In this document: positions 14,415-33,797 of the stretch, one piece after another
Layout of the letters: every line of letters starts with the position of its first letter
How positions within the stretch are numbered: the first letter of the stretch is position 1
NCBI GenBank assembly: GCA_025450405.1
Contig: JANWHL010000085.1
Span: 1 to 33,797, forward strand
From: Ktedonobacterales bacterium
GTDB lineage: Bacteria; Chloroflexota; Ktedonobacteria; Ktedonobacterales; JADMIN01
Length of the DNA stretch: 33,797 bases
Reading direction: 5' to 3'
Program-made: the position numbers and the translations under genes
Notes under the pieces: model-generated
Database searches by the model: none
What the model was told of the DNA's origin: nothing
What the model saw: only the letters and a program-made list of their open reading frames with translations

Positions 14415-14771
14415 CTACGCCGACTTCGCGCTGGCCAGGGCAAGCTCTTCATCCGGGAAGATGCTCATGAAGTCGGTCAGGCGGGTGATGCGGAAGATCT
14501 CGACATAGTGGTCGCTCAAGCCGAACGCCAGCAGAGCGCGGTTGGATTTGCGCGCCCGGACCAGCAGGCCGACGATCAGCGCGATGCCCGAGCTGTTGAT
14601 GTAGTCCACGTCGTGGAAATTGAGCGCGATGGGCCGCGGTCCGCACGCCTCCGCGCGCGCGTATGCCGCCCCCAGGGTTTCGTCGGACGCGGATGAGATG
14701 TCGCCATGGAGGTCCACAACCGTCGCGATGGGACCGCAGCGCACGTCGGCCTCAAGATGCCTCGCCGTCAC
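14415..14771 (-). CDS. STAS-domain protein (anti-sigma factor antagonist-like), 118 aa, GTG start
   Basis: ATVVDLHGDISSASDETLGAAY…IALNFHDVDYINSSGIALIVGLLVRARKSNRALLAFGLSDHYVEIFRITRLTDFMSIFPDEELALASA; start overlaps the upstream stop by 20 nt. Confidence 0.88.
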   Translation of the reverse strand: MTARHLEADVRCGPIATVVDLHGDISSASDETLGAAYARAEACGPRPIALNFHDVDYINSSGIALIVGLLVRARKSNRALLAFGLSDHYVEIFRITRLTDFMSIFPDEELALASAKSA

Positions 14772-16491
14772 GGGGTCCTCCTTCCAGGCGCATGATCAGC
14801 TCGATGGTGTGGTGCGTCTCGTCACTGGTGACACGCATTTCGTCCACCAGATTCTGGATCAGGAACAACCCCCACCCGCGCGGAGTCTGGCGCTCGGCCA
14901 GCTTGGCTTCGAGATCGGGCGTTTGCGGAGTGGGGATGGGTCGATTGCCGCCCTGGTCGCGGATGCGCACCATCACCGCGCGGTCGCTGCGCAGTACTTC
15001 GATGTAGACGGGTAACTCAGCCGTATAGCCGTTGCCATGCTCCATGGCGTTCATCGTGGCCTCGGCCACCGCCGTCTTCAGATGCTCCAGCTGCTTGGGT
15101 GTCAGGCCAAGCGGGCGCAACACTTCGGCTACCTGGTCCATGGCATCGCGCTCATTGCCGGGTTCGCTCGGCAGGCTAAATGTGGCCAGGGTGCTCCAGT
15201 CTTCGTCCGCCACCGGGGCGGCCGTCTCCGGCGCGGTGGGCGCATTGGGCGCCTCCGGCGTGTCGGGCGCGGGCTCCGCCAGCGCGATCGGCGCCGCCAG
15301 ACTGGCCGAGCGGGACGCGCCGGGCGCCGCGTCGGCGGCGGAGTTGAGGCTCGCACGCCGTAACGTGACGAATGTCACATCGTCCTCCTGTTCCCAACCC
15401 GGACCGGTGAACTCGCCCAACTGGTCCAGGAGCGCATCGATCAGCATCTTGCCGCCCTCGTGGCTGGCAACGAATGCCGCGAGTCGCGGGAAGCCAAACA
15501 TCTCGCCGGTGGGGCTATGCGCCTCCACCAGGCCATCGCTGTGGAAGAGAATACTATCGCCAGCCGCCAGGATGAGCGCGTTTTCCTCGTACGCCATGCC
15601 TGGCATGAGCCCCAGCGGCATCCCGCGGGCTTGCAGCTCTTCGGCGCCGTCGTCGTGGCGCCGATACGGCAGGTCATGGCCGGCGTTCGCGAAGACCAGG
15701 CGGCCAGACGTGGGGTCGAGCAGCCCGTAGAAGCAGGTGACGAACATCTTGGCCGGGATGTCGGGGCAGAGGAGGTTATTGGCACGCTCCAGCACCGCGC
15801 CAGGCGACGTGTTCTCCTGAGCGGCGGCGCGCAGGATGCTGCGGGTGGTGGCCATCACCAGCGCGGCGGGCACGCCTTTGTCCGTGACATCGCCAATGAC
15901 GATGCCCAGCCGGCCATCGGGGAAGGCGAGGAAGTCATAGAAGTCGCCACCAACCGCTCGAGCCGCCTGGTAGTACGCCGCGAACTCCCAGCCGGCGATA
16001 TCGGGCAGTTCTTTCGGCAGCAGCGTTTGCTGGATCAACCGCGCGACGCGCAGCTCTTGCTCCAGACGTTCGCGCGCTCGGATCTCCATCTGCTGTTCGC
16101 GCACCAGCTGGGCCACGCGCAATGCTGGCGCGGCCTGCGTGGCGAGGTCGTTGAGGAGGCCACGGTCATACGTCGAATAGTCCTGCTCGCTCAGCCGCGG
16201 CCCGAGATTCAGCAGCCCGACAAGCTCGCCCTGGCTGACCAGCGGCACGACCAGCCGTACCCCCGCGGCCCGCAACTGGGTGAGCGCGGGCGAGTCGAGG
16301 TGGATCTTGTCGATCTCCACCGCGCCCGGCGCGCTCAAAAAGTAGGGGATGAGCGGATCGTTGGGCGCGATCTCGACGGGTGGGGACTCGCCGCCGCGCA
16401 CGCCGTGGCTTGTAGGCTTCCGGGCGACCACTTCGTCGCGCTGTCCCCGAGGTTTCAACCCGAGCCGGAGGCTTTCAAAGAAGCTGGCCAT
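14752..16491 (-). CDS. GAF-like / SpoIIE-type PP2C phosphatase / HATPase_c (RsbW-like) fusion protein (579 aa)
   Basis: GAF-like N-terminus; phosphatase motifs VGGDFYDF, IGDVTDKGVPAALVMA, NAGHDLPY, HSDGLVEA, EDDVTFVTL; C-terminal N-box TAVAEATMNAMEHGNGY, G1 VRIRDQGG, G2 GWGLFLIQNLVD. Confidence 0.94.
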   Translation of the reverse strand: MASFFESLRLGLKPRGQRDEVVARKPTSHGVRGGESPPVEIAPNDPLIPYFLSAPGAVEIDKIHLDSPALTQLRAAGVRLVVPLVSQGELVGLLNLGPRLSEQDYSTYDRGLLNDLATQAAPALRVAQLVREQQMEIRARERLEQELRVARLIQQTLLPKELPDIAGWEFAAYYQAARAVGGDFYDFLAFPDGRLGIVIGDVTDKGVPAALVMATTRSILRAAAQENTSPGAVLERANNLLCPDIPAKMFVTCFYGLLDPTSGRLVFANAGHDLPYRRHDDGAEELQARGMPLGLMPGMAYEENALILAAGDSILFHSDGLVEAHSPTGEMFGFPRLAAFVASHEGGKMLIDALLDQLGEFTGPGWEQEDDVTFVTLRRASLNSAADAAPGASRSASLAAPIALAEPAPDTPEAPNAPTAPETAAPVADEDWSTLATFSLPSEPGNERDAMDQVAEVLRPLGLTPKQLEHLKTAVAEATMNAMEHGNGYTAELPVYIEVLRSDRAVMVRIRDQGGNRPIPTPQTPDLEAKLAERQTPRGWGLFLIQNLVDEMRVTSDETHHTIELIMRLEGGPRDGEAS

Positions 16492-16635
16492 ACTGACTCC
16501 ATCTGGCTGGACCACGCCCAGACCACTCGATGCTCTCGACGGATGGTCTCGACTTATCCCGTCGTTGTCCCTATCGTACCGTGCCAGCGTCCCCTTAACG
16601 TTACGAGACGCGCTACGAGCCACCCCATTGTAACA

Positions 16636-32215: not shown

Positions 32216-32258
32216 GCGCGTGCCGCTCAGCAATAATCTCCTTCGGCGGAGGACGCGC

Positions 32259-33491
32259 ATGCCAGATATCTTCGATCAGCGCCGCGACGAGCATCTCAAA
32301 AAATCGCAGGCCTTCCTCCAGGAGGCCAACAACCTCTTCCGCGACGACCTGCTCTATCGCTCGGCCCTGGCCGATGCCGTCTCGGCCATCAAGCACAGTC
32401 TCCAGGGGTACCTCTGGATGCGTGTGGCGGCCGCGCCCGCGGGAGAGCAGCGCCAGCGCTGGCAGGAGGTCGCGCTGAACGGCAGCATGCCGCAGCTGTT
32501 GCGCGCCAGCGAGGAAGCCGGCCTGCAAACCGGGGATGTGCGCCGGACCGTCCTGGATATGAACGACCGGCGGAACGAGCGCACGCACGACTCGCCGCGC
32601 AGCCTGATCACCCCGGACCAGGCTGAGCAAGCGGTGCGGATCGCGCGCGCCGTGTATGACCGCGTGCTGCGCGCCAGCGGGCGCGCGCCAGTGGGCGTTG
32701 GCACCGCTGCCAGCGCTGGCAAGTCCACCGCCGCGGCCGCCACCCAGACGGGCACCCGGCCCACCGAGCCGGTACGGGTTGGGCCCGCAATCGCGGGCGG
32801 CTCCTCGGCCGGTACGCTGGCCCCGCGGCCACCGACGCCCACTCCGGCGGGCGACCGGGCCCCGGCCAATGGCAAGACGGCCGCGCCGGACGCCGAATCA
32901 ACCCCGCCGGTGGTCCCGGCAGTGCCCGACGATCCGGACGATGGCCCGCTCGGCCCGCTATCAGACGACCCGCTGCCGCTCCGTCACCGCCGGGGAACGG
33001 CCTGGCGCTGGATCGGGCTGGCCGCCGCGGTGGTGATCAGCGCGGTCATGGGAGCCGCCGTGACGTATCCCGTCGCGGCGGGGGATGTGCCGTCCTGGGT
33101 GCCGATCCGCGGCTATCTCCCGGGCCCGGCCACCACGGCCACGTCGATGCCCACGCCTACCATCACGGCCGTCCCGATCCCTAGCGGCCCCATTCAGCTC
33201 GGCACGCTGGTGATCACCGTCGCGGCCTGCGGGACGACGCCGCGCACCCTCACGCTCGAGAACACCGGGCCGACGGCGGTCGCCTGGGCGGCGGGGAGCC
33301 CGGATGTGCCAGGCAGCGCGCTGGCGCTGGTGACGGCCAAGGGTGCGGGTGCCGCGCGGCCCACGCTCGCGGGCCGGCTCACGGCGCACGGCAGCGTCGC
33401 GTTCGCGCTGGCGGCGCCGGCCACTGGCCCCGCGCACGTGGTCGTGATCGCCGACGCCGGGACGGCGGAGGTGGCCCTCGCGCCGTGCTGA
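32259..33491 (+). CDS. HEPN-like N-terminal domain, Pro/Ala-rich linker, single TM, Ig-like C-terminal domain (410 aa)
   Basis: Helical N-terminus with YRSALADAVSAIKHSLQGYLWMRV and RxxxxH-type DRRNERTHD; TM WIGLAAAVVISAVMGAAVTYPVA; C-terminal beta-rich stretch ITVAACGTTPRTLTLENTG…TAEVALAPC*. Confidence 0.75.
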   Translation: MPDIFDQRRDEHLKKSQAFLQEANNLFRDDLLYRSALADAVSAIKHSLQGYLWMRVAAAPAGEQRQRWQEVALNGSMPQLLRASEEAGLQTGDVRRTVLDMNDRRNERTHDSPRSLITPDQAEQAVRIARAVYDRVLRASGRAPVGVGTAASAGKSTAAAATQTGTRPTEPVRVGPAIAGGSSAGTLAPRPPTPTPAGDRAPANGKTAAPDAESTPPVVPAVPDDPDDGPLGPLSDDPLPLRHRRGTAWRWIGLAAAVVISAVMGAAVTYPVAAGDVPSWVPIRGYLPGPATTATSMPTPTITAVPIPSGPIQLGTLVITVAACGTTPRTLTLENTGPTAVAWAAGSPDVPGSALALVTAKGAGAARPTLAGRLTAHGSVAFALAAPATGPAHVVVIADAGTAEVALAPC

Positions 33492-33528
33492 GCCGACCGC
33501 GCCACACGGCGGCCGCAGGTGTGGGCCG

Positions 33529-33797
33529 TCAGACGGTGGGGTACGGTGTGGGCGTGGGCAGACCCCAGTATTGGCCGGCCCCGTAGCTCGGCGCCAGGAA
33601 TACGTAGGTGTAGGCGTTCCACGCCGCCTCCGGAGTTAAGCTGTCCCATTTCAGGGTTGCCGCCGTCCGTGCCGTGACATCCGCGGACCCATAAGCGGAC
33701 ATGACGATGTTGCCGTAGTCATCCTGAAAAGGACCGAGCACACCCACATCCACATCGTTGACCGCCACGCCACTGGTCCACAGGGCCTTGAGCGCGC
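33529..33797 (-). CDS. C-terminal fragment of an unidentified protein running off the window (…ALKALWTSGVAVNDVDVGVLGPFQDDYGNIVMSAYGSADVTARTAATLKWDSLTPEAAWNAYTYVFLAPSYGAGQYWGLPTPTPYPTV*)
   Basis: Frame stays open to the window edge upstream of the listed GTG; ordinary protein-like composition. Confidence 0.65.
   Translation of the reverse strand, partial: ALKALWTSGVAVNDVDVGVLGPFQDDYGNIVMSAYGSADVTARTAATLKWDSLTPEAAWNAYTYVFLAPSYGAGQYWGLPTPTPYPTV

Follow-up and report, generated by a model that had tools for sequence, protein, structure and literature searches.

What can a HEPN-like domain be doing on the same polypeptide as a membrane helix and a putative extracytoplasmic domain? The question arises from a gene carried on a 33,797-nt stretch of DNA (the window) from a Ktedonobacterales bacterium, whose genome is a 3.4-Mb draft, 58% complete, with matching relatives among the Ktedonobacterales or Ktedonobacteria. 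A preliminary description, based on the sequence, had read the gene product as an N-terminal HEPN domain followed by a Pro/Ala/Thr linker, one transmembrane (TM) helix and a beta-rich C-terminal domain. Its reading frame, with start, stop and 410 amino acids, is confirmed (Table 1), and the linker, helix and beta-rich domain were all recovered, by composition, hydropathy and structural modelling. That the full architecture recurs in other genera, at 34–38% identity, argues that the gene is real. Our analysis indicates that the architecture is very probably receptor-like, and the best explanation of the protein, which we consider probable, is a receptor-like, single-pass, membrane-tethered RNase.

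Table 1. Features of the HEPN–TM–Ig gene and its predicted product (coordinates in the window)
Feature	Coordinates	Strand	Details	Basis
GGAGG ribosome-binding site	32248..32252	+	6 nt upstream of the ATG	sequence
Whole gene	32259..33491	+	410 aa: HEPN - linker - TM - stalk - Ig-like domain; starts with ATG at 32259, stops with TGA (last base 33491), 410 codons	sequence, homologues
HEPN domain, predicted cytosolic	32259..32678	+	residues 1-140	Pfam PF05168, AlphaFold pLDDT 91, Foldseek PDB
D39-A-V-S-A-I-K45, candidate auxiliary active-site acid	32373..32393	+	core helix 2 (33-58), invariant	
RNERTHD (R105 N106 H110 D111), HEPN Rx4H motif	32571..32591	+	end of core helix 3; invariant in 5 genera	
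Disordered Pro/Ala/Thr/Gly-rich linker	32682..32993	+	basic patch RHRR at its end, on the predicted cytosolic side of the TM	
Single transmembrane helix	33006..33074	+	about residues 250-272	hydropathy; basic residues ahead of it in every homologue
Juxtamembrane segment (conserved GxxPxW) and Pro/Thr stalk, predicted extracytoplasmic	33075..33191	+		
Ig-like beta-sandwich, predicted ectodomain	33192..33488	+	conserved Cys324, Cys410	model, Foldseek, kinase ectodomains

The identity of the N-terminal domain was addressed with both profiles and structural models. Taken in isolation, it matches Pfam family PF05168 (E=1.4e-4, 22.5 bits for a cut-off of 22), and the same family is matched by 4/4 complete homologues (best E=1.3e-4); the full-length window protein scores 17.6 bits, under the cut-off. 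The AlphaFold model of residues 1–140 (pLDDT 91, pTM 0.88) is all-helical, with helices at 4–28, 33–58, 63–74, 77–86, 95–106 and 119–139 which form two alpha-hairpins, and includes a helical insert (63–86) separating core helices 2 and 3. HEPN domains have a core of four helices arranged as two alpha-hairpins, and helices 2 and 3 are often separated by an insert (PMC3710099). In a Foldseek search of the PDB with this model, the top six structures (2hsb, 1wol, 7bxo, 2q00, 6m6u and 3o10) are all HEPN or HEPN-toxin proteins, including HepT (7bxo and 6m6u) and sacsin (3o10). Their TM-scores are 0.51–0.66, and those of other helical bundles ~0.35 or less. The match with 2hsb has TM-scores of 0.66/0.73 and a probability of 1.00; E-values in this search are modest, the best being 0.0095 and none going down to 0.001.

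Comparison of the N-domain profile with those of local HepT and other HEPN families (HepT, MNT-HEPN fusions and a conserved Ktedonobacterial PF05168 protein) gave no significant alignment. In the MNT-HEPN comparison RNERTHD was aligned with RDALVHD, but with E=0.27, and a PDB sequence search with the profile returned chance matches only. The HEPN assignment, originally made by eye, is nevertheless upheld by the Pfam matches of the complete homologues, by the confidence of the model and by the six best Foldseek structures. As modelled, the N-terminal domain is a HEPN fold; AlphaFold and Foldseek, which might have revealed a different one, agree on this.

Is the domain equipped to cleave RNA? 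The preliminary description had pointed to an RxxxxH-type motif and to the sequence following it, and both are present: RNERTHD is followed by a final helix carrying ITPDQAEQAVRIARAVYDRVL. R105-N106-x3-H110-D111 is unchanged in all five genera covering the motif, and both the Arg and the His are kept in every homologue in which these positions are covered. This is conservation within a shallow family, since homologues are few (five genera). In the model, R105 and N106 close core helix 3 (95–106) and H110 is located in the loop ahead of the last helix. The HEPN Rx4-6H motif is located where helix 3 ends and in the loop which follows, and the residue after the motif Arg, here N106, is typically polar where Rx4-6H is conserved (PMC3710099). 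We infer that R105 and H110 are placed in the active-site groove. D39, which may act as the auxiliary active-site acid, and K45 are also invariant, in helix 33–58, with a Dx5K spacing compared to the Ex3[KR] typical of helix 2 in HEPN domains, and an invariant E11xxxK15 is located in helix 1.

In characterized HEPN proteins, the His is essential in RNase L, RloC and PrrC, the Arg is needed in KEN and PrrC, and the RNase products carry a 2',3'-cyclic phosphate (PMC3710099). By analogy, the domain would most likely be a metal-independent endoRNase using R105/H110; judged from sequence and model, the balance tips slightly towards a catalytically active RNase. The alternative which survives best is that the HEPN domain lacks catalytic activity and serves as a helical adaptor or binds RNA, and that the protein is a membrane scaffold docking RNA or a cytosolic partner such as a kinase or the adjacent oxidoreductase (see below). 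Many invariant N-domain residues (W68, Q69, P78, G88, ADAVS and LQGYL) indeed lie outside the motif, some HEPN domains are thought to be non-catalytic, and 2hsb, the closest solved fold, is from a group which typically lacks the motif His (PMC3710099). However, HEPN domains considered non-catalytic have lost the motif wholly or partly (PMC3710099), whereas R105, N106, H110 and D111 are kept at the catalytic position in five genera, and we regard a scaffold of this type as unlikely.

Residues 142–245 of the linker are 65% P/A/T/S/G, and the Kyte-Doolittle profile (19-residue window) includes one hydrophobic segment, with a maximum of 2.06 at residue 251. In all homologues the TM segment is hydrophobic, is preceded by basic residues and is followed by a Cys pair, a conserved pattern which fits an orientation with the HEPN domain inside and the C-terminal domain outside. 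Cys324 and Cys410 likely form a disulfide. The ectodomain model, of moderate confidence (pLDDT 66), is all beta with 8 strands, and its Foldseek matches are Ig-like folds with TM-scores of about 0.4–0.6 (MSP, complement macroglobulin-type domains, adaptin appendage and factor XIII). Together, the charge bias, the Cys pair, the 8-strand model and the Foldseek matches support the proposed layout, in which the N-terminus would be inside, the TM helix single and the C-terminal, Ig-like ectodomain outside.

This ectodomain is also found on other proteins. A profile of the TM plus ectodomain also matches Ser/Thr kinases of these bacteria (L028, L034 and L035), of which L035 resides in the window's own genome. 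Pfam confirmed their kinase domains and placed related ectodomains near the BACON and HYDIN-like Ig families. A search with the kinase ectodomains gave matches in 10/11 genomes of the bacterial family, the best in each genome being a kinase-sized frame of 566–644 aa. When compared with 14 kinase-type ectodomains using hhalign, the ectodomain of the HEPN protein scored 40.2 (E=8e-7), while the maximum in 60 column-shuffled control comparisons was 19.4. By this sequence criterion, the ectodomains of the HEPN protein and the Ser/Thr kinases are homologous. Like the window protein, these Ktedonobacterales kinases (L035, L034, L028 and others) include a cytosolic effector, a Pro-rich linker, a single TM, a Pro/Thr stalk and, as the last element, a BACON/HYDIN-like Ig domain that has one Cys in an early strand and another near the C-terminus. 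They differ in carrying a protein kinase in place of the HEPN domain, and the window ectodomain sequence forms a distinct branch. The same kind of module is also found after a zinc ribbon (L051) and after a helical domain (L050 and L052). Since the TM-ectodomain module is shared and the cytosolic parts differ, the HEPN protein is one of a receptor-like set and, as its outside part is common to receptor kinases, it resembles a receptor ending in an RNase rather than in a kinase.

Two other groups of frames with related modules were observed. L050 (a 434-aa frame on the - strand) and L052:547-1767 include a helical N-terminal domain of ~200 aa, a Pro-rich linker, a TM and a BACON-like ectodomain. 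In these two genera the same receptor module may carry yet another effector or adaptor. L046, L047 and L048 are frames of 218–238 aa which combine a TM and a kinase-type Ig ectodomain with no recognisable effector domain. They are possibly decoys or co-receptors.

Among the genomes covered, the full HEPN–TM–Ig architecture is restricted to one Ktedonobacterales family, where it is present in 5/11 genomes representing five genera, including that of the window. Among the relatives, from four other genera, three are complete genes (the identity of 34–38% given above extends over their full length) and one is split over two contigs; a scan of genome contigs gave only these four. The other 6/11 family genomes gave no match to the gene, nor did the remainder of a 400-genome phylum sample, phages, plasmids or viral contigs. 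Three weak N-domain matches outside the family were rejected as chance: L011, a sensor histidine kinase, L012, which is of the same size and is matched over the same short stretch, and L013, a frame opposite better gene candidates. On the anchor-gene tree, the distribution of the gene needs two gains or losses, which is no better than chance (126/500 shuffles as low).

In the window, the genes upstream encode an M24 peptidase and a PLP-dependent enzyme, and the surroundings are of a housekeeping type. In four other genomes (G002, G003, G005 and G006) the HEPN gene is followed immediately, on the same strand, by a FAD oxidoreductase gene, and the same oxidoreductase occurs in G004, G007, G008 and G010 with no detectable HEPN gene beside it. 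This FAD-dependent oxidoreductase has the coordinates L015:9420-10658 and L017:9299-10669. Neither in the window nor at the homologous loci is there a nucleotidyltransferase or other small antitoxin gene next to the HEPN gene, no defence gene or link to mobile elements was seen in these neighbourhoods, and PADLOC assigned 0 families to 4 members of the HEPN–TM–Ig family. The connection to toxin-antitoxin and defence systems raised in the preliminary description is thus supported neither by the neighbourhood nor by PADLOC.

These observations bear on two other explanations. As an anti-phage abortive-infection effector, the protein would sense phage through its ectodomain or membrane part and kill the cell by HEPN-mediated RNA cutting. 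HEPN RNases are common defence effectors (PMC3710099), and a patchy presence with two changes on the tree might be expected of such a system. However, two changes are indistinguishable from chance, the gene occupies a conserved chromosomal position alongside the same oxidoreductase in four genera, and homologues are absent from phages, plasmids and viral contigs. With fitting neighbours and PADLOC matches missing, we rejected a defence island, and an abortive-infection role appears improbable. A membrane-bound HEPN toxin of a toxin-antitoxin pair is very improbable and was rejected because the partner gene is missing, the neighbours being instead the genes listed above (M24 peptidase and PLP-dependent enzyme upstream in the window, FAD oxidoreductase downstream in other genera), even though the best fold matches include HepT toxins. 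Indeed, the window protein shares the HEPN fold and the RNx3H motif with the HepT toxins of MntA/HepT systems, but it is membrane tethered, has no significant profile match to local HepT and, as the nucleotidyltransferase (MNT) partner is absent, is not part of a HepT/MntA pair.

We therefore return to the receptor-like RNase and to its relationship with known systems. Three groups of bacterial TM-HEPN proteins with potential external domains were reported in 2013 and were proposed to function in stimulus-dependent RNA degradation (Anantharaman et al., PMC3710099). The window protein resembles them in the predicted location of HEPN at the inner membrane face and in its potential external domain, and resembles group 3 in having an N-terminal HEPN followed by TM (PMC3710099). 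In contrast, in group 1 the TM is N-terminal and bears a WP signature and the HEPN is of the DUF4145 type, in group 2 an Abi2/SWT1 HEPN is C-terminal to the TM helix, and group 3 proteins combine a TM pair with a Zn-ribbon at the C-terminus (PMC3710099). With one TM C-terminal to the HEPN domain, a Pro/Thr stalk, an all-beta Ig-like ectodomain with two Cys only and a likely disulfide, the window protein has none of these layouts, and no description of the three groups includes a single TM together with an Ig-like ectodomain common to receptor kinases. Of the unusual architecture initially suggested, the specific layout is therefore new, but the more general idea of a bacterial membrane HEPN RNase with an external sensor was already published in 2013 (PMC3710099). 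A literature search, largely without subscription journals, found no paper on HEPN in Ktedonobacter and nothing relevant on membrane-anchored HEPN ectodomains.

Another parallel is provided by eukaryotic Ire1, likewise a single-pass protein, in which a sensor domain faces the non-cytosolic side and the RNase, of the HEPN superfamily (KEN), is cytosolic. Ire1 differs in including a kinase between TM and HEPN (Pfam identifies HEPN and no kinase in the window protein), and the window protein differs in the reversed order of its termini, in its canonical rather than circularly permuted HEPN and in its unrelated sensor; the resemblance is one of analogy only. HEPN RNases usually function as dimers, and an outside change could thus act through HEPN association. 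Whether it came from a ligand, wall tension, misfolded protein or clustering, such a change would modify how the ectodomains associate, and this would bring the HEPN domains together or apart at the inner membrane face and, in an Ire1-like manner by analogy, would switch local RNA cleavage. Cleavage at this location is suggested by HEPN biochemistry (PMC3710099), and control by an outside signal via clustering by the parallel with Ire1 and by the 2013 TM-HEPN proposal. We consider control of HEPN activity by the ectodomain to be a tentative possibility. That the protein is a bacterial receptor RNase in which an extracytoplasmic signal directly switches membrane RNA decay, an Ire1 counterpart which arose by independent fusion, is somewhat more doubtful still. 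If the HEPN domain were active and gated from outside, a single protein would link the cell surface to RNA cleavage in bacteria, with no kinase or transcription factor in between. The presence of kinase and HEPN on related receptor modules offers a ready experimental comparison between phosphorylation and RNA decay, which would probe the 2013 proposal that bacterial membrane HEPN proteins degrade RNA in a stimulus-dependent way.

Several additional features were noted. A conserved PF05168 HEPN protein (L078-L098, e.g. L079:1477-2136, - strand) is present in most sampled Ktedonobacterales genomes. It often has a length of ~200 aa, an acidic extension at the N-terminus and the signature YNHDLRALG / FHPEAFYADTPPEEAD, and is without a clear Rx4H. 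Proteins of ~300 aa in which a HepT-like domain comes after an apparent nucleotidyltransferase domain (L105-L113) occur in many Ktedonobacterales, several of them with RDALVHD. In the window itself, a convergent frame on the - strand (33520-33797, listed as 33529-33795) crosses the window edge and, by eye, has a PTPTPYPTV-like C-terminal end. A further gene of the window (14752-16623, - strand) encodes a GAF - SpoIIE phosphatase - HATPase fusion, which combines phosphatase and anti-sigma kinase-like domains in one protein.
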